Shown here: positions 22,952 to 31,762 of the stretch, piece after piece
How the letters are laid out: every line of letters begins with the position of its first letter
How positions within the stretch are numbered: the first letter of the stretch is position 1
NCBI GenBank assembly: GCA_022750055.1
Contig: JAKIWL010000003.1
Location: 243,300 to 307,299 of the forward strand
Reading direction: 5' to 3'
Origin: Thermoplasmata archaeon
GTDB lineage: Archaea; Thermoplasmatota; Thermoplasmata; Lutacidiplasmatales; UBA184
Length of the DNA stretch: 64,000 nucleotides
Program-made: the position numbers and the translations under genes
Notes under the pieces: model-generated
Database searches by the model: none
What the model was told of the DNA's origin: nothing
What the model saw: the letters and a program-made list of their open reading frames with translations, nothing else

Positions 22952-25900
22952 TTATGGGGAGCCCCGCGGGGGGGCCGGCGGTGGCGTGTCGGACCCGGAA
23001 TCGAGGCCATCGGCCACCTGATAGAGGCGGTCGACCAAGACCCGAGCCCGCTCCCGCTCCTTCGTCCGATATCGGTACGCCGTGAGCGCGAGGCCCAGCG
23101 CCCCGATGGTGGCGATCGCCACGCCGAGCACGGTCCCGGAGAGGATCGAGCTCGGAGCGAAGAACTTGGGACTGGATGGAATAGACGGGATCGAGGCGAA
23201 GCTCACGACCAACGTCGGTGGGGAGGCCCCGGAGACGGTCACGGTACCGAAACTCGTGATGTAGCCTGCCGCCCCGGCGGAATACAGGAACTTGCCGTTC
23301 GAGACGTGGAAGACGACCGGCGTCCCACCGGGGGATGCGTGGGAGACGTTGGTCGACTGACCAGGTCCGTTGAGGTCGATGACCACGCTGTTCGTGCTGC
23401 TTCCTAGGTCGACGAACCAGGAGGCTCCCGCCCCCAATCCCGTCTCGGTGAAAGTCAACGTGTAGGGGGTGGGGGTGGTCACCTGGAACAGGACGGGATT
23501 CACGTTCGAGTTGGAGAAGCTGTCGGTCGCCGTCGCCGTATAGGGTCCGATGGGTACGGCGGGCACCAGGAAGGCACAGCCCAAGAAGCTCCCGTCGGGT
23601 CCCGTGGTGCAGGGGGCGAGGAGGGAAACCCGGTTCCCCCCGAAGGACACGACGATCGGAGAGATGGGGGCATATCCGTTCCCGCTCATGGACACGGTGG
23701 CTCCCACCGCCCCACTCGGCCCGGCCATCGAAAAGCTCGCTAAGATCTGGAACGGGGTGAACCCGCTCGTGGAGTTGTGGACGAGGCTCACCGTGTTGTC
23801 GTATTCGTTCGTCACGGCGGCCTCCGCAGCGCCCGAGTCGTACGCGACCGTCACCGGGACCACGCCGACCTGCACGTGGGCGACCACCGAATCGTTGGTG
23901 TCGTTGATCTCGACGAGGGAGCCTCGCACGTTCGGGAGCGGGACACCGGTCCCATTGTTCCCTCCGGCCCCCGATGCGTTCAGGTCGTTGACCAAGATCG
24001 CCCCCGCCGCGGGGTCGTAGGTGACCCCCGACAGGCCCGTGCCCGCGGCGATCGTGGCGACCACGGTGTTCGAGGAATCCGAGATCACGCTTACGTTCGT
24101 TCCATTGATCTGCGAAACGAACACTTGGCCCTTCGCCGCGTCGTACGCCACGCTCCAGGGGTCGTGCCCCACCGACACCGTGGCTACCACCGAGTTCGTG
24201 GAGTCCGAGATGATCGTCACGTTCCCGGTGTACGCGGTCACGAACAGTTCCCCTTTCTTCGCGTCATAGGCGATCCCCTCCGGTCCGCCAGCGACCGAAA
24301 CGGTCGCCACGACCTTGTTCGACGATCCTGAGATGGCGGTTACGGAGTTCGACCCGAAGTTCGTCACGTAGATCTCTCCTCGACCCGGGTCGTAAGCGAG
24401 TTCGAACGGGTCCGTTCCCACGGTCACGTTCGCGACCACCGAATTGGTCGAGTCGTTGATCACGCTCACGGTCCCGACGCCCCCGGGGTCATAGTTCGCC
24501 ACCAGGACCTCGCCCAGGGCCGGGGCGTAGACGACCCCGTGTGGGCGATAGCCGACCGACACCGAGGTCCGAATTGAGTTCGTGGAATCATTGATCACGT
24601 CGATCGAGGCGGTGTTCAGGTCCGACACGAACAGCTCCCCCTTGGCCGAGTCGTACGCGATTCCCCAAGGACCCGATCCCGCGGCGATCGTGTTCTGCGG
24701 CGCGCCGCTCCCATACCCGATCACGCTCACGGTGTTGTCGTACTGATTCGCCACGAACGCCTGGCCGGTGCCCGAGTCGTAGACGACCGCCACCGGGACG
24801 CCCCCGACGGCCACTTGGGCGACTACCGAGTCGTTCGAATCGTTGATCTCGACGAGCCACCCAGGGTTGCCCGGAAGGGGGACCCCGTTTCCGTTGTTGC
24901 CGCCGGCTCCTGTGGCGTTCAAGACGTTCACCAGCATCGATCCGGCCGCGGGGTCATAGGTCACCCCGGTGGGGCCCGGAGCGGTGGTCACGGCAGCGAC
25001 GACCGAGTTCGACGAGTCCGAGATGACGCTCACCTTCGTGCCGTTAACCTGGGTCACGAAGAGTTCGCCCTGGGCGGCGTCGTACGCCACGGCCCACGGA
25101 TCGTTCCCGACCGTCACGGTGGTCAGGACCGCGTTCGTTGAGTCCGAGATCACGCTCACGCTACCGCCGTAGGCCGTCACAAAGAGCTCGCCCTTCCCGC
25201 TGTCGTACGCGATCCCTTGCGGGCTCGCGGGGACGGAAACGGTCGCCACCACGGAGTTCGTCGTGTCGTTGATCACGCTGACGCTGCTAGAACCGAAGTT
25301 CGTCACGAAGACCTCGCCCCGGCCCGCGTCGTACGCGAGCTCGAACGGATCGCTCCCTACGGTCACACTCGCGACCACAGAGTTCGTGGTCGCGTTGATC
25401 ACGCTGACCGACCCGGGGCCCCCGGGGTCGTAGTTCGCGACGAACAATTCCGCCCGGCCCGAATCGTAGACGACCCCGTGTGGGCGATTCCCGACAGAGA
25501 TCGACCCCGTCACCGAAAGCGTCGAGTCGTTGATCACCTCGACCGAGTTGGTGTTGATATCGGCTACGTACACCGCTCCTTTCGTCGGGGCGTAGGCGGC
25601 CCCCCAGGGTCCGGACCCGGCGGCGAGGGTCTCGATCGCAGCGAGGGTATGGTTGGAGGAGCTGGTGGATGAGGCGGCCGAGACCACCAGCGTTCGCGGC
25701 CCGTGCGGGGCCGCAGGGACGGTGAAACGGCACGCGAACGCGCCCGCCGCGCTCGCTTGGACTTTGAGACCCGCGCCGGCCAGGGTGCCAACCGAGCAAT
25801 CCGTGAACGCGAGCAGTCGTCCGCCGAGCGTGGCAGTGAGAAGCTCATGCGGCTGGTAACCAGAGGCCTGAGCGGTCACGACACTCCCGACCGTTCCTGC

Positions 25901-26272
25901 CGAAGGAGACAGGACCACCCCGGCGAGGGCGGAGGAATGCCCTTCAGGGGAGAACGCATCCGTGCTCAACCCGCCTTGAGAGAGGGGTTGCACGGACGGC
26001 CCGGGCGCCCGAGACACCGGCGATCGCGGGTCGTGGCCGAGGGGAGGCCCGCCCCCGCGTTCCGGGCTGATCGGGAGGGAGTACGGAGCCCCCATCAGGA
26101 ACATCGTACCGACCACGAGCAGTAGCATGGCGAGATGGAAACCGGTCCCCTTCGATCGACGCTTCCTAGGCCGGGAGGAACTCCGGATTCCGGTCGGAGA
26201 CGTTGGTTCGAGGGGGGGCGGTTCAACGGGTGGACCCAGGTCGACACACGACGGCGCACCAGAACGCAGCAT
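22952..26272 (-). CDS. Giant exported protein with two seven-bladed propellers, 1106 aa
   Basis: The start is moved to the ATG at 26272 because a TATA box lies about 25 nt upstream and the signal segment (LAMLLLVVGTMFLMGAPYSL) then falls near residue 50. An N-terminal Ig-like domain is followed by fourteen YVTN/YncE-type blades (pattern P-x-G-x-x-Y-D-x-x-x-G-x-x-F-V-x-N...V-x-V-I). Blades 1-7 match blades 8-14 in order, so a whole propeller was duplicated. A second Ig-like domain, a YTLTFTETGLGAGASWFVDL module typical of thermoplasmatal secreted proteins, and a C-terminal helix (TVLGVAIATIGALGLAL) follow. It is likely a surface-anchored binding or adhesion protein. Confidence 0.88.
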   Translation of the reverse strand: MLRSGAPSCVDLGPPVEPPPLEPTSPTGIRSSSRPRKRRSKGTGFHLAMLLLVVGTMFLMGAPYSLPISPERGGGPPLGHDPRSPVSRAPGPSVQPLSQGGLSTDAFSPEGHSSALAGVVLSPSAGTVGSVVTAQASGYQPHELLTATLGGRLLAFTDCSVGTLAGAGLKVQASAAGAFACRFTVPAAPHGPRTLVVSAASSTSSSNHTLAAIETLAAGSGPWGAAYAPTKGAVYVADINTNSVEVINDSTLSVTGSISVGNRPHGVVYDSGRAELFVANYDPGGPGSVSVINATTNSVVASVTVGSDPFELAYDAGRGEVFVTNFGSSSVSVINDTTNSVVATVSVPASPQGIAYDSGKGELFVTAYGGSVSVISDSTNAVLTTVTVGNDPWAVAYDAAQGELFVTQVNGTKVSVISDSSNSVVAAVTTAPGPTGVTYDPAAGSMLVNVLNATGAGGNNGNGVPLPGNPGWLVEINDSNDSVVAQVAVGGVPVAVVYDSGTGQAFVANQYDNTVSVIGYGSGAPQNTIAAGSGPWGIAYDSAKGELFVSDLNTASIDVINDSTNSIRTSVSVGYRPHGVVYAPALGEVLVANYDPGGVGTVSVINDSTNSVVANVTVGTDPFELAYDPGRGEIYVTNFGSNSVTAISGSSNKVVATVSVAGGPEGIAYDAKKGELFVTAYTGNVTIISDSTNSVVATVSVGHDPWSVAYDAAKGQVFVSQINGTNVSVISDSSNTVVATIAAGTGLSGVTYDPAAGAILVNDLNASGAGGNNGTGVPLPNVRGSLVEINDTNDSVVAHVQVGVVPVTVAYDSGAAEAAVTNEYDNTVSLVHNSTSGFTPFQILASFSMAGPSGAVGATVSMSGNGYAPISPIVVSFGGNRVSLLAPCTTGPDGSFLGCAFLVPAVPIGPYTATATDSFSNSNVNPVLFQVTTPTPYTLTFTETGLGAGASWFVDLGSSTNSVVIDLNGPGQSTNVSHASPGGTPVVFHVSNGKFLYSAGAAGYITSFGTVTVSGASPPTLVVSFASIPSIPSSPKFFAPSSILSGTVLGVAIATIGALGLALTAYRYRTKERERARVLVDRLYQVADGLDSGSDTPPPAPPRGSP
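23770..25640 (-). repeat. Tandem duplication of a seven-blade propeller-coding unit
   Basis: Within the 1106-aa gene, the unit at about 24705-25640 and the unit at about 23770-24705 encode corresponding blades in the same order. For example, GNNGNGVPLPGNPGW in blade 6 matches GNNGTGVPLPNVRGS in blade 13. Unit boundaries are approximate. Confidence 0.75.
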
Positions 26273-26629
26273 CGACGGTGGGCTCGGCTGCCGTCGTAAT
26301 AAATCCTCGGCGAGGATACACGGAAAAACCCACACCGGTCAAGCTCGCGAACCGCCCCAGAGTGCGTTTGACGACCGCCGGAATCCGAGGGTCAGGGAGG
26401 CGTGCGGGCAGGGGAGCACGGGATTTCCCGTCGACTCGACGGGTTCCGGCGTAGCGTTCTGGTTAGGACTCTTGAGCTGTGGAGTTGCAAGGTGCGAACC
26501 GATCCGGCCGTCGTGGCGGTCCTTAGTCGGCCCTTCCGTTCCGCCCGCCCATCGCTTGAAAAAACGGTGAGGACTCCGTGGAAATCGCAAGAAAGGCTTT
26601 ACTCCAGTTCTGAGCTGGTCTTTCACCTA
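26273..26629. other. Gene-free intergenic stretch with divergent promoters
   Basis: This 357-nt region separates divergent genes. It holds a minus-strand TATA box for the propeller protein and a weaker plus-strand GGCTTTACT about 30 nt before the ATG at 26630. Base composition drops toward the right. No gene-like ORF or RNA gene is evident. Confidence 0.5.
26297..26304 (-). promoter_or_regulatory. TATA box for the propeller protein
   Basis: Minus-strand ATTTATTA lies 25-32 nt before the ATG at 26272 and decides the start chosen for that gene. Confidence 0.65.
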
Positions 26630-27181
26630 ATGGCTCGGGTGGGAGGGCGGCATATCCTGGCGGCCTTCGCCGCGGGCCTGGCAGGGGGTGCGAGCGTTCT
26701 CATCCTTGCCTCGGCATACTCGGTAGAGGAGGGGTTCGGGTTCCTCAGCCCATACCAAGGGATTGGGCGCGTTCTGGGCTTTTCAGGCACGACGGGGCTG
26801 GCCGTAGGTTTCCTGGTCGACTTCCTGATTCCGATTGTCGTGGCGCTGGTCATGGTCCTTACACTTGCGGTTCTTTCGTTGACCCGATGGAGAGTCCTTG
26901 AATTCACCGATCCCTTCCGTGCTTCCGGGGAGGGCGGCTTGGTTGGGATGGTTGTGTTCGCCGTGTTCTATATCCCCGTCATCGAGCTACTGACTCACTA
27001 TCCCCCACTCCCCGCCCTAAGGGATTCGTTACTGTTCGGGTTCGCGGAACATCTGATTTTCGGGGCGGTCATCGGTTTAGTTCTATTCCTGGTGGGTGGA
27101 CCAGTTCGATTCCGTTCGCCTTCACTCTACCTTCCCGGGGGGGCTCCGACCACCGAGCGGGAATACTCGGGTGGGCCTTAG
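26630..27181 (+). CDS. Small multi-pass membrane protein, 183 aa
   Basis: The track ORF begins at 26402, but the ATG at 26630 (MARVGGRHILAAFAAG) starts the membrane-protein sequence. Four hydrophobic segments are visible: HILAAFAAGLAGGASVLILAS, LIPIVVALVMVLTLAVL, GLVGMVVFAVFYIPVIELL and LIFGAVIGLVLFLVGG. There are few charged residues and no cysteine cluster. No family is recognised. Base composition is lower in GC than the neighbouring housekeeping genes, in keeping with the patch that runs to the tRNA-Trp at 28.6 kb, so it may be accessory DNA. Confidence 0.7.
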   Translation: MARVGGRHILAAFAAGLAGGASVLILASAYSVEEGFGFLSPYQGIGRVLGFSGTTGLAVGFLVDFLIPIVVALVMVLTLAVLSLTRWRVLEFTDPFRASGEGGLVGMVVFAVFYIPVIELLTHYPPLPALRDSLLFGFAEHLIFGAVIGLVLFLVGGPVRFRSPSLYLPGGAPTTEREYSGGP

Positions 27182-27437
27182 AAGGCTCGCCCTGCCTGGG
27201 GGTCGGACCGGTGGAACCAGGGCTCACGCTTCCTCGTTCCGGGTCACCGACCAGCCGCCTATCCTTCGAACCGACCCGCAGAAGATTCCGAGTTCGCATC
27301 GGGCCCAGAAACACCCCGCCCCCCCATCCCAGCGGGGCGCGAAAAAACCCACTCGTATCCCCGGGGGTTATGGGAGCCCGGGGTTCCACACGATAGGGCG
27401 GGAACGCCGCAGGGCAAGTTAAGGCGTGGGAAAAACG

Positions 27438-28178
27438 CTAGGTCCGCTTCTTCGAGGCTGCTCGTAGGAGGGCTTTCGGGGGTTCGATTTCATCCGCACC
27501 GAGCCAGACTTCGGGCGTCGATACAAACGCAGTGGTTTGGTCTCCGGCCGTGATGACCTCAACCACGTACCTCTCCGGGTCTCGGCGGAGCCGCTTCAGG
27601 ATGGACTCGAGCACACGACACGCGGACCCTTTTGCAAATATCACCACGGTTCCGGGCCCGTGAGCGATCAAACGCATTCGTACTTTCCCCAAGGTTTGTT
27701 CGACGGGGTTGCCAGCCACCACAAACAGAACGAATCGGTCGACATTCCGCAGGAATCCCTCAAGACGAGACTGGACATCGGCCGAGGTCGACTCCTCTCT
27801 GACGAGGAGTTTGAGGTAGGCAGTTATGACACCGTTTGCCACAAGTTCGGCGACATGGTGACCTGCGGCACCGAACCGGCGCTGCAGGTTCCCTCTCAGC
27901 GATTCCCGCACATCGCGAAGCCCGGGTTTCGATTGTAGCCTCCTTAACGCAAGACCAAGTTGAACTTGGATCCGAAGTTCTCGGTCGGTGACGTATGCTT
28001 TGAAGAAATTGAATTCCGGTGCCTGCCGCTCCTCCTTGATCAGCGAGATGACCGCAGGGTCTGTGGCGCCTCCGACTTCCCTGTTTCTTACGCGCTCGAT
28101 GAATCGAGCGGCTCCTTCCGCGAGAAGCTTTGCCAGTCCGTATGCAGTGCTTGCGAACGGGTCTGGAGGGACATCCAT
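27438..28178 (-). CDS. Hypothetical protein of a two-gene accessory cassette, 246 aa
   Basis: No family is recognised. The N-terminal half is helical (AYGLAKLLAEGAARFIERVRNRE, RELRIQVQLGLALRRLQSK). The C-terminal half has alternating hydrophobic strands (VDRFVLFVVAGN, GPGTVVIFAKGSACRVLESILKRL, ERYVVEVITAGDQTTAFV), suggesting a Rossmann-like or similar alpha/beta domain. There is no signal peptide or P-loop. The ATG at 28178 overlaps the stop of the upstream 81-aa gene by one base, so the two are probably translated together. GC content is clearly below that of the window average, a sign of recent acquisition. Confidence 0.7.
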   Translation of the reverse strand: MDVPPDPFASTAYGLAKLLAEGAARFIERVRNREVGGATDPAVISLIKEERQAPEFNFFKAYVTDRELRIQVQLGLALRRLQSKPGLRDVRESLRGNLQRRFGAAGHHVAELVANGVITAYLKLLVREESTSADVQSRLEGFLRNVDRFVLFVVAGNPVEQTLGKVRMRLIAHGPGTVVIFAKGSACRVLESILKRLRRDPERYVVEVITAGDQTTAFVSTPEVWLGADEIEPPKALLRAASKKRT

Positions 28179-28423
28179 CAGAGGATATCCCCGTGCACCT
28201 CCAGATACCAGGCGATGCTCACCGGATTGTTGTCCAACAGGACAACGCTGCCAGGGAGGACCGCGATATTGTCGAGCCGAAGAGGCTCCTTGGAATATGG
28301 ATCGAGTGCACGCTCACCCGCCTTTACGAGGTGGATTCCATCCGAGTCGACCTCGCAACCGAGCTCCTTCGCGACCCCGACCCGAAAGTCGAGTGGTGTG
28401 TCCTTTAGGGATACAATCTGCAT
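28178..28423 (-). CDS. Small hypothetical protein, first gene of accessory cassette, 81 aa
   Basis: The product (MQIVSLKDTPLDFRVGVAKE) is small and slightly acidic, with a likely beta-rich C-terminal half (LDNIAVLPGSVVLLDNNPVSIAWYLEV). It is not recognised. It is coupled to the 246-aa gene by a one-base stop-start overlap (TGATG). A minus-strand CATTATG about 35 nt upstream may be its TATA box. A small upstream gene coupled to a larger one recalls toxin-antitoxin or defence modules, but nothing in either sequence proves this. Confidence 0.65.
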   Translation of the reverse strand: MQIVSLKDTPLDFRVGVAKELGCEVDSDGIHLVKAGERALDPYSKEPLRLDNIAVLPGSVVLLDNNPVSIAWYLEVHGDIL

Positions 28424-28639: not shown

Positions 28640-28800
28640 TGGGAGCACGGGGATTTGAACCCCGATATGCGGGTCTCTCCGCGCGCTCCAGTCACTCGTC
28701 ATGGGGGCCGCCGAAGCCCCTCCGCTGACCCGATGTCCCAGGTCGACGGTTCGTCGACCTGACTGGAGCCCGCCGGTCTGCCAGGTTAGCCTATGCTCCC
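28640..28800 (-). tRNA. tRNA-Trp (CCA anticodon), intron-containing
   Basis: Read on the minus strand, the acceptor GGGAGCA pairs perfectly with TGCTCCC and is followed by discriminator A (no encoded CCA). The T arm is CGGGG-TTCAAAT-CCCCG and the anticodon stem GCGGG/CCCGC. The anticodon loop CTCCAG-A gives anticodon CCA for tryptophan. An 88-nt intron interrupts the loop between positions 37 and 38. The D stem has a C-A and a G-U position, which is weaker than usual. The gene lies downstream of uvrB on the same strand; its 3' end faces a low-GC patch. Confidence 0.92.
28675..28762 (-). other. tRNA-Trp intron (88 nt) with bulge-helix-bulge splice sites
   Basis: The exon segment CTCC pairs with intron GGAG to make a 4-bp central helix flanked by 3-nt bulges AGT and AGA. 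Cleavage after the second base of each bulge removes the 88 nt. This is the canonical substrate geometry of archaeal tRNA endonuclease. The intron also contains a 9-bp hairpin (CAGGTCGAC/GTCGACCTG) and a segment TGACTGGAGC complementary to the anticodon region. No C/D-box pair was found. Confidence 0.8.
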
Positions 28801-28847
28801 TCGAAGGAGGGCGAGTCCTACGCCAACATAACCATTCGCGTCGACAT

Positions 28848-30917
28848 TCAGGCGGTCGGACGGGTGCCCCCCCGTCGGGCCGCCTTCCGATGGGCGGTCA
28901 GTCCTGCGGACTCCTCGAGCGCATGGATCCGATCCCGGATCCGTGCCGCCTCCTCGAAGTCGAGGCGCTCGGCGGCGAGGCGCATCTCCTCTTCGAGATT
29001 GGCGAGCAGCATCGGAAGGCGGGACTTCCATTTCTTCCCGAGCCCCGAGACCGACAGGTCCCCGGAAGGGGCGGACTCCTCCGCCGCGAGCAGGGCCCGG
29101 ACCTCCTTGCGGATCGTCGACGGGACGATGCCGTGCTCGGCGTTGTACGCGACCTGGGCGGCGCGCCGCCGGTTCATCTCCGCGATCGCGCGATCCATCG
29201 AGCCGGTGCGTCGGTCGGCATACAACAGAACCTTCCCGAGCACGTTGCGCGACGCCCGGCCGCTCGTCTGGATGAGCGAGGTCTCGCTCCGAAGGTACCC
29301 TTCCTTGTCCGCGTCCAGGATCGCCACGAGGCTCACCTCGGGCAGGTCGAGGCCCTCCCGCAAGAGGTTGATGCCGACGAGGACGTCGAACCGCCCGAGG
29401 CGCAGGTCCCGGAGGATCTCGATTCGTTTGAGCGTCTCTATCTCGGAATGGAGATAGCGGACCTTCAGCCCGAGGTCGGCCAGGTAGCGGGCCAGGTCCT
29501 CGGAGGTGGCCTTCGTCAGGGTCGTGACGAGCGCGCGATCCCCCCGGGCAATGACCGTCTTGAGCTCGCCGACGAGGTCGACGATCTGGCCCTTCGTGGG
29601 CCGGATCTCGATCTCGGGGTCGACGAGGCCGGTCGGACGGATGATCTGCTCGACGAGGCCGTCGGAGTGCTTGCGTTCGAACGGGCCGGGCGTGGCCGAT
29701 ACGAAGACCGCGTTGGGGACGTGGGCGAGAAACTCCGTGAACTTCAGCGGCCGGTTGTCGCGGCAGGAAGGAAGGCGCCATCCGAACTCCACGAGGGTGT
29801 CCTTTCGGGACCGGTCCCCAAGGTACATGCCGCCGAGCTGGGGCACGGTGACGTGGGACTCGTCGATGAAAACGAGGAAGTCCTTCGGGAAGAAATCAAG
29901 GAGCGTGTAGGGGGCCTCCCCGGGCTTGCGACCGGCGAAGTAGCGGGCGTAGTTCTCGATCCCGGAACAGTAGCCCGTCTCGCGGATCATCTCGACGTCG
30001 TACTCGGTCCGGCTGCGCAGCCGTTGCGCCTCGACGACCCGTTCCTTCCGGAGGAGCTCCTGGACTCGGTCCTCCTTCTCTGCCTGGATCTGGGCCAAGA
30101 TGGATTGCATGCGCTCGTCGACCGTCAGGAAGTGGGTGGCCGGGAACAGCATCAGTCGGTCGAGCTCGCGCTTCTCTTCCCCCGTGACGGGGTCGAGCTC
30201 CGAGATCGACTCGAGGGTGCTCCCGTCGAGCACGATCCGGTTCACCGTCTCCCCGGCGCCCATCACGTCGATCGTCCCCCCGCGCACGCGGAAGCGACCG
30301 CGCTTGAGCTCGAGGTCGTTGCGGTCGTACTTCATCCGCACGAGCTTTGCGAGGAGCTCCTGGCGACCGATCGATTCCCCCCGTACCAACTCGACGACCG
30401 AGGCGCGATAGTCCTCCGGGGAGCCGAGACCGAAGATACAACTGACCGACGCGACGATCAGGGTGTCGCGACGCGTGAGCAGCGCCTGGGTGGCCCGATG
30501 CCGGAGCCGGTCGATCTCCTCGTTGATCGATGCGTCCTTCTCGACGAACAGGTCGATCTGCGGGACATACGCCTCGGGCTGATAGTAATCGTAGTAGCTC
30601 ACAAAGTATTCGACGGCGCTACGAGGGAACAGGGCACGGAATTCGCTCACCAGCTGCGCCGCGAGGGTCTTGTTCGGGGAGATGACCAGGGTCGGCCGCT
30701 GGAGAGCCTGGATCGCATGGGCCATCGTGAACGTCTTTCCGGAGCCGGTCACGCCGAGCAGCGTCACGAAACGTTCGTCGGCACGGACCCGCCGGACGAT
30801 CTCGGCAATCGCGGCGGGTTGATCTCCCTGCGGGACGAGTTCCGTGTCGAGCTCGAATCGACCGGTCAACGGCTCGGCGACCGCGGCCGGCTCGGCCTTC
30901 GGTTGGGCCTCGGTCAT
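28848..30917 (-). CDS. uvrB: Excinuclease ABC subunit UvrB, 689 aa
   Basis: Helicase motifs and the UvrB signatures are present: GVTGSGKTFTMAHAIQ (Walker A), the beta-hairpin region YYDYYQPEAYVPQ, DESHVTVPQLGGMY, VATLTKATSEDL-type motif IV, GINLLREGLDLPEVSLVAILDADKEG, and a C-terminal UVR domain (LEEEMRLAAERLDFEEAARIRD). UvrB verifies DNA lesions with UvrA and UvrC in nucleotide excision repair; the gene type is bacterial in origin and found in some archaea. I start at the ATG at 30917, which overlaps the upstream larE-like stop (ATGA); the track start is five codons earlier. UvrA and UvrC are not in the window. Confidence 0.96.
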   Translation of the reverse strand: MTEAQPKAEPAAVAEPLTGRFELDTELVPQGDQPAAIAEIVRRVRADERFVTLLGVTGSGKTFTMAHAIQALQRPTLVISPNKTLAAQLVSEFRALFPRSAVEYFVSYYDYYQPEAYVPQIDLFVEKDASINEEIDRLRHRATQALLTRRDTLIVASVSCIFGLGSPEDYRASVVELVRGESIGRQELLAKLVRMKYDRNDLELKRGRFRVRGGTIDVMGAGETVNRIVLDGSTLESISELDPVTGEEKRELDRLMLFPATHFLTVDERMQSILAQIQAEKEDRVQELLRKERVVEAQRLRSRTEYDVEMIRETGYCSGIENYARYFAGRKPGEAPYTLLDFFPKDFLVFIDESHVTVPQLGGMYLGDRSRKDTLVEFGWRLPSCRDNRPLKFTEFLAHVPNAVFVSATPGPFERKHSDGLVEQIIRPTGLVDPEIEIRPTKGQIVDLVGELKTVIARGDRALVTTLTKATSEDLARYLADLGLKVRYLHSEIETLKRIEILRDLRLGRFDVLVGINLLREGLDLPEVSLVAILDADKEGYLRSETSLIQTSGRASRNVLGKVLLYADRRTGSMDRAIAEMNRRRAAQVAYNAEHGIVPSTIRKEVRALLAAEESAPSGDLSVSGLGKKWKSRLPMLLANLEEEMRLAAERLDFEEAARIRDRIHALEESAGLTAHRKAARRGGTRPTA

Positions 30918-31762
30918 GCGCTCGGCCGCCACCGGTACCCGTGGGGGTCGAGGATCACGGAGCCGAACCCCAGGGTGGCCAGCTCCTCGCGTACCTCGGA
31001 GGCGATCGGGTCCGACAACAGACGACTCGTTTCGGTCGGGTCGACCTCGACCCGCGCGTTGGCTCCCTCGACCCGGACCCGGACCCGGCGGAACCCGAGG
31101 CGGCGCAGGACCGCCTCGGACCGATCGACCGTCCGGAGCAGATCGGCGGTGATCAGCTGGCCATGACGGACCCGGGAGGCCAGGCAGGCGTCGGAGGGCT
31201 GGTCGGCATTCGGTAGGCCGATGGAGCCTCCGAACGCACGGACCTCTGCCTTCCCCCAGCGGGCGTCGACGAGCGGATGGCGGAACCCCGCCTCCTCCAT
31301 CGCCCGGATCCCGGGTCGGTCCTCGCCGAGGTCATCCGATTGAACCCCATCGTAGAATCGAGAGATTCCCCGTGCCTGACCCCAGGACGAGACGGCAGAG
31401 GTCTCGACCCGTCGACAGAAGTAGCACCGATTCGCGGGATTGGACCGATACTCCGCAGAGGCGAGCGGGTCCACCGGGACGAGTTCGTGGTGGATCCCGA
31501 GGAATCGGGCCACTTCGACGGCCCGTTCGACCTCGGTCGGGGCCACGGCCGGACCCGATAGCGTGACGGCGTGGGCCCGATCGGCCAACGCCCGAACTAG
31601 GAGCGCCGCCACGACCGAGGAATCCACGCCCCCCGACATGGCCACGACCGCCGGGCCGGAAGCCCGCAGCGACCGGATCAGCCGTTCCGGCTCCCAACTG
31701 TCGATCGCTGGCGTCCGATCCAACGGCGGCGGGTCCATCGCGATTCTCAGAGAGGCCGTCAT
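30914..31762 (-). CDS. larE: LarE-like ATP-dependent sulfur transferase, 282 aa
   Basis: A PP-loop motif AMSGGVDSSVVAALLVRAL, the cysteine segment NPANRCYFCRR, and DQPSDACLASR match the LarE family, which uses its own cysteine sulfur or a cluster to build the nickel-pincer cofactor of lactate racemase. Members outside lactate-racemase loci probably serve other sulfur transfers. There is no larB, larC or larA nearby. The start is uncertain: ATGs at 31762 and 31738 are both possible and the track uses 31798. Its stop overlaps the uvrB start, so the two genes are translationally coupled, an unusual pairing. Confidence 0.85.
   Translation of the reverse strand: MTASLRIAMDPPPLDRTPAIDSWEPERLIRSLRASGPAVVAMSGGVDSSVVAALLVRALADRAHAVTLSGPAVAPTEVERAVEVARFLGIHHELVPVDPLASAEYRSNPANRCYFCRRVETSAVSSWGQARGISRFYDGVQSDDLGEDRPGIRAMEEAGFRHPLVDARWGKAEVRAFGGSIGLPNADQPSDACLASRVRHGQLITADLLRTVDRSEAVLRRLGFRRVRVRVEGANARVEVDPTETSRLLSDPIASEVREELATLGFGSVILDPHGYRWRPSA

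Follow-up and report, generated by a model that had tools for sequence, protein, structure and literature searches.

We describe a pair of overlapping genes in the 64,000-nucleotide stretch of DNA analysed here (henceforth the window), from an archaeon belonging to Thermoplasmata, which is real, undescribed and recurs in scattered relatives as a unit that looks mobile. Our preferred reading, for which we judge the case to be evenly balanced, is that the two genes form an accessory, horizontally moving, two-protein nucleic-acid-binding module that is plausibly a conflict system (i.e., serving defence or acting like a toxin-antitoxin pair). The computed basis for this reading comprises genes that are conserved and diverge together, a patchy distribution, low GC content, a new place in each genome, a predicted Alba fold in the large protein and zinc-finger homology in the small one.

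A coupled gene pair of low GC content

The two genes lie head to tail on the minus strand:

28178-28423, minus strand: small gene, 81 aa (open reading frame; homologues 5' of the partner in other loci)
27438-28178, minus strand: large gene, 246 aa (open reading frame and homologues)

An earlier note on this DNA had picked them out as a TGATG-coupled pair of 81 and 246 aa, lower in GC than the surrounding chromosome and belonging to no known family, and each of these properties was borne out. Specifically, the TGA of the small gene and the ATG of the large gene have an A in common, and the cassette has a GC content of 0.579 vs. 0.665 in its flanks, the minimum among 611 same-size segments of the 64 kb (0 of 611 were as low). 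Codon usage is not uniform across the region, with GC3 at 0.62-0.70 in the cassette genes vs. 0.78-0.88 in neighbouring genes. The high GC content of the host (a genome of 1.5 Mb in 5 contigs, 94% complete) agrees with the ~69% GC of the soil order Lutacidiplasmatales (PMC9287336). Since homologues of both open reading frames were found, in the same order, in 18 other loci, we consider both to be real genes.

Neither protein reached any model in Pfam, NCBIfam, PHROG or PADLOC (the last covering known anti-phage defence systems), the family-library searches found no known toxin, antitoxin, nuclease or defence domain in the pair, and a sequence search of the PDB with both proteins gave no credible match. 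Weak Pfam matches (Fpg-like_C, Herpes_BLRF2 and others) were each confined to single members of the family and were rejected as chance.

The low-GC patch extends into the next gene (26402-27181, GC 0.60), which encodes a membrane protein and is convergent with the cassette. This gene has a paralogue, 58% identical, at 353029-353562 of contig C3 (genome G000) and no match in 40 relatives. Further along, 22952-26335 encodes a surface-type protein of 1127 aa, in which an NHL/YncE-like beta-propeller occurs in two internal copies that are also visible as a DNA repeat (73% over 903 nt).

The pair recurs as a unit in scattered genomes

Searching genomes up to 400 at a time, we obtained 20 loci, window included; the pair is thus no orphan, as the 19 further loci occur in Thermoplasmata as well as in further classes of its phylum. 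Both genes were present in identical order in 18 of these 19, mostly overlapping or at most 10 nt apart, and with the window counted the large gene lies 3' of the small one in 19 of 20 loci. Three copies are irregular: the partner is seen as a weak vestige only in L029, the large protein is frameshifted in L108, and in L019 it lacks the Alba part and stops early, close to the end of a contig.

The loci fall into two branches, A (the window, L016-L022, L029, L030 and L031) and B (L032, L089, L093 and L099-L104). Profile comparison united them into one family, both for the large proteins (97%, E 1.2e-10) and for the small proteins (98.4%, E 4.7e-15), with a reversed control at 0.2% and E-values that refer to single comparisons. 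The distance matrices of small and large proteins were strongly correlated (Mantel r 0.815, reached by 0 of 5000 permutations), and the correlation persisted inside each branch, meaning that the pair travels as a unit. Two large partners from branch B carry an asparagine-rich segment ahead of the conserved core, NIVINNNKIVN in genome G387 (L103:491-1444) and NVVINNNIYMN in genome G161 (L104:516-1454).

The module is rare (~2% of genomes): a copy turned up in 7 of 400 genomes at the level of the class, in 7 of 390 for the phylum and in 4 of 78 for the genus, and its genomic place differs in each. Among genus mates UvrB is 74-80% identical, yet the module is either missing or represented by a large protein only ~26-28% identical to that of the window and encoded elsewhere in the genome; one genus mate carries a branch B copy. 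In 19 of 19 loci the GC content of the module is below that of its flanks (mean difference 8 points), across hosts ranging from 37% to 71% GC. A scan of genome contigs yielded the G018 record, which was known before, and nothing further; no sequence relative of the pair was found in viral contigs, phages or plasmids.

The comparison with relatives thus revealed nothing like universal core presence. Were these lineage-specific housekeeping genes whose low GC arose by chance, the conservation of the pair across wide distances would be expected; this reading is already contradicted by the distribution, the pair being missing from ~95% of genomes in the genus and 98% in the class, as well as by a low GC content at every one of the loci compared, and we regard it as highly improbable.

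The small protein is probably derived from a zinc finger

The small protein was modelled with AlphaFold2 at a pLDDT of 90. Its ancestry, which had escaped the earlier note, emerged from profile comparison: it matches the zinc-bearing branch (98.4%, single-comparison E 4.7e-15), seven of its relatives keep a CX2CX20CX4C motif, and it lacks all four cysteines itself. The same holds for branch A in general, where the four cysteines are absent and only L031 retains a partial remnant, while branch B proteins mostly carry the full motif. Genomes G387 and G161 have lost the cysteines separately, indicating that the metal site was lost at least twice. We conclude from these alignments that the small partner is probably descended from a CX2CX20CX4C zinc finger.

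The relatives with four cysteines come near the zf-FCS consensus of the TRASH clan, CX2CX14-30FCSX2C (PMC4047054). As in TRASH/zf-FCS C2-C2 zinc fingers (treble clef), seven of the small-protein relatives have CxxC and CxxxxC knuckles 20 residues apart; unlike them, these relatives have CX4C as the last spacing, and the protein in the window has no cysteine at any of the four positions. The only meaningful structural neighbour found with Foldseek was the TRASH domain of ZMYM5 (2das), a weak match (TM 0.47, rmsd 3.1, E 7.9).

The large protein probably ends in an Alba-type fold

AlphaFold2 models were built with family alignments. The large protein reached a pLDDT of 79.5 (residues 41-220 mostly >80) and was predicted to consist of helices up to about residue 149, followed by a b-a-b-a-b-b arrangement. 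We divide it into two parts:

27744-28178, minus strand: N-terminal all-helical region, residues 1-145 (AlphaFold2 secondary structure and alignment)
27513-27743, minus strand: C-terminal Alba/IF3-C-fold domain, residues about 146-222 (AlphaFold2 topology and Foldseek)

In the family alignment the helical N-terminus carries the conserved motifs GLxLR and GxHIAxxVQxGIL. The predicted topology of residues 146-222, b1-a1-b2-a2-b3-b4, is that of Alba/IF3-C, and it was not apparent to the earlier note, which had been made from the letters alone. Foldseek matched the model to plant, archaeal and trypanosome Alba proteins, to Rpp20/Rpp25 and to IF3-C; against Alba proteins the probability was up to 1.00, with a best E of 3.5e-3 and a target-normalised TM of about 0.5-0.64. 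Other matches (leucine zippers, designed helical proteins, methyltransferases) were mostly of low probability or TM-score. An [AG]-[RK]-G loop in this C-terminal domain aligns on the KARG loop of Alba.

Sequence and profile comparison, by contrast, failed to provide sequence-level proof of Alba descent. The best match to Pfam Alba (PF01918) among the members, in L017, covers the same stretch at E 0.043 and 14 bits vs. a cut-off of 25, which was reached by no member, and comparisons with true Alba proteins by hhalign gave a probability of just 2-7%, so the assignment rests on the predicted structure. On that footing, we consider that the large protein probably ends in a nucleic-acid-binding fold of Alba/IF3-C type.

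The module thus resembles the Alba/IF3-C/SpoVS superfamily in topology, in its Foldseek matches and in the register of its loop, and differs from it in profile similarity, in fusing the domain to a helical N-terminus and in coupling it to a small partner. The Alba fold is described in a 2024 survey (PMC11621453), and a term search of that survey yielded no combination of helical N-terminus and small partner. In the family libraries and literature that we searched, no system couples an Alba-fold protein to a relative of zinc fingers.

Among viral proteins, the model of the large protein shares an alignment of 237 columns with BFVD A0A8S5TTG3 (E 2.6e-3, probability 1.00, TM 0.34), a 346-aa phage protein of unassigned function and a possible distant viral relative.

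Genomic neighbourhood and possible role

Three copies of the module (L020, L022 and L106) have restriction-modification genes at a distance of at most 4.5 kb, AbiE genes lie by L110 and Schlafen AlbA_2 genes by L029. Transposases or an integrase occur by L030, L032, L096, L107 and L109, at less than 5 kb from several copies. Several other copies stand beside housekeeping genes as judged by eye (e.g., thermosome-like by L017 and DNA-polymerase-like by L031). When compared with 19 control stretches drawn from the same genomes, restriction systems gave the one firm difference, being present in 3 of 19 module flanks vs. 0 of 19 controls, a non-significant excess among the matches listed (the best 25 families per search); we therefore call the link of the module to defence suggestive only. 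No homology links the module itself to the AbiEi/AbiEii, restriction-modification or Schlafen systems that flank some of its copies. A dense defence-type neighbourhood (L020:1-13573) contains a HEAT-repeat protein, a protein with a TIR-like start (KVFVSHSREDKE), a methyltransferase fused to an Mrr-like nuclease, a PIN/AbrB-like pair and a nucleotidyltransferase.

The earlier note had likened the layout to toxin-antitoxin or defence modules. Of this, the coupled pair stands and such a role is plausible, whereas a known domain is lacking and the neighbourhood signal is not significant. In its strict form, the proposal would be a type II-like toxin-antitoxin system in which the small protein acts as antitoxin to the Alba-fold protein, the latter stopping growth by binding or cleaving RNA (tRNA, rRNA or mRNA). 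The module does resemble type II systems in having the small gene first, overlapping a larger partner, and in being accessory, mobile and made of genes that are conserved together; the co-divergence of the two proteins, the patchy distribution, a fold of RNA-binding type and decay in some genomes (G476 with just a partner vestige, the frameshifted L108) point the same way. Against it, the module holds no recognised toxin or antitoxin and matches no family of either, it is absent from the plasmid collection, and the large-protein alignment has no catalytic-looking invariant residues, so that a nuclease toxin is not our first guess. We found no literature linking the Alba domain with toxin-antitoxin systems. 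Overall, we consider this explanation unlikely.

Alternatively, the pair may serve a mobile element or virus as a nucleic-acid-binding regulator or chromatin-type module, involved for example in copy-number control or the silencing of foreign DNA, with no toxin at all. Such a role would sit well with the Alba fold, with AT-richness in every host, with the transposases or integrase near several copies and with the structural likeness to the phage protein described above. It is harder to square with the lack of sequence relatives in viral contigs, phages and plasmids, and with the fact that no replication or packaging genes adjoin the pair in the window; we rate it as improbable to a similar degree.

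Under the reading that we prefer, i.e., an accessory two-protein module that binds nucleic acid, the small and large proteins would be translated together and form a complex. The Alba-fold domain would grip RNA or DNA, and the zinc-finger-derived small protein might dock on the helical domain as an adaptor or regulator. The branch represented in the window would have abandoned the metal site while retaining the fold, as expected for a role in protein binding and not in catalysis or metal sensing. More speculatively, the job of the module could be genetic conflict, either as a defence that acts on viruses or plasmids or as a toxin-antitoxin-like arrangement in which the product of the small first gene neutralises its partner. 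Weighing against this reading are the absence of any toxin, nuclease or defence domain, the non-significant restriction signal, the housekeeping neighbours, the low Alba profile probability and the copy in L019 without the Alba part.

A bolder version, which we put forward tentatively and lean against, is that two-gene conflict systems of this kind form a new class in archaea, combining an Alba-fold RNA- or DNA-binding effector with a small zinc-finger-derived controller that lost its metal site at least twice, and spread horizontally through Thermoplasmatota. If the module does serve in conflict, the defence repertoire of this poorly studied archaeal phylum would gain a new effector fold. The ~20 loci in two branches can be compared at once, and since one branch has lost the metal site, setting it against the other offers a test of what the small protein does.

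The tRNA-Trp gene and the question of insertion

The surroundings of the cassette include three further features:

28640-28800, minus strand: tRNA-Trp(CCA) with a long intron, 5' of the cassette (Rfam RF00005, 39.5 bits; seven-relative alignment)
27342-27383, minus strand: terminator-like hairpin, CCCCGGG...CCCGGGG followed by six T, 3' of the large gene (folding)
27369-27383, plus strand: 15-nt near-copy (14/15) of the tRNA-Trp 3' end, a possible att remnant, inside the terminator hairpin

The cassette was correctly placed on the 3' side of a tRNA-Trp gene by the earlier note; this gene, with its long intron, was missed by ARAGORN. The further suggestion that the cassette had integrated there fared less well. 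If a small element had carried the pair into the tRNA-Trp 3' end, the pair would be expected to be bounded by a repeat, and the 14/15 copy, for which 0.01 occurrences are expected by chance in the window, sits beyond the cassette, where an att remnant would. In the relatives examined, moreover, the tRNA-Trp occurs without the cassette and with other genes on its 3' side (in seven of them, ~4.5 kb downstream of uvrB). However, the strong terminator-like hairpin accounts for the G+C-rich half of the repeat, no integrase lies between the repeats in the window, and tRNAs were not found beside other module copies save for one at 1.8 kb, in a scan that could miss intron-bearing tRNAs. Given that the sole repeat coincides with the hairpin and that tRNAs do not mark the sites of the other copies, the evidence fails to support insertion at the tRNA, which we consider quite unlikely.

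In the window, uvrB directly adjoins the tRNA-Trp gene (28640-30932), and in L056 the interval between the two holds an apparent ABC-type uptake operon for a metal or cofactor. The intron of archaeal tRNA-Trp doubles as a C/D guide RNA and, as expected from this, the intron ends (CATGACGAGTGACTGGAGC and GGGTC.GCGGAGG) are conserved in the seven relatives.
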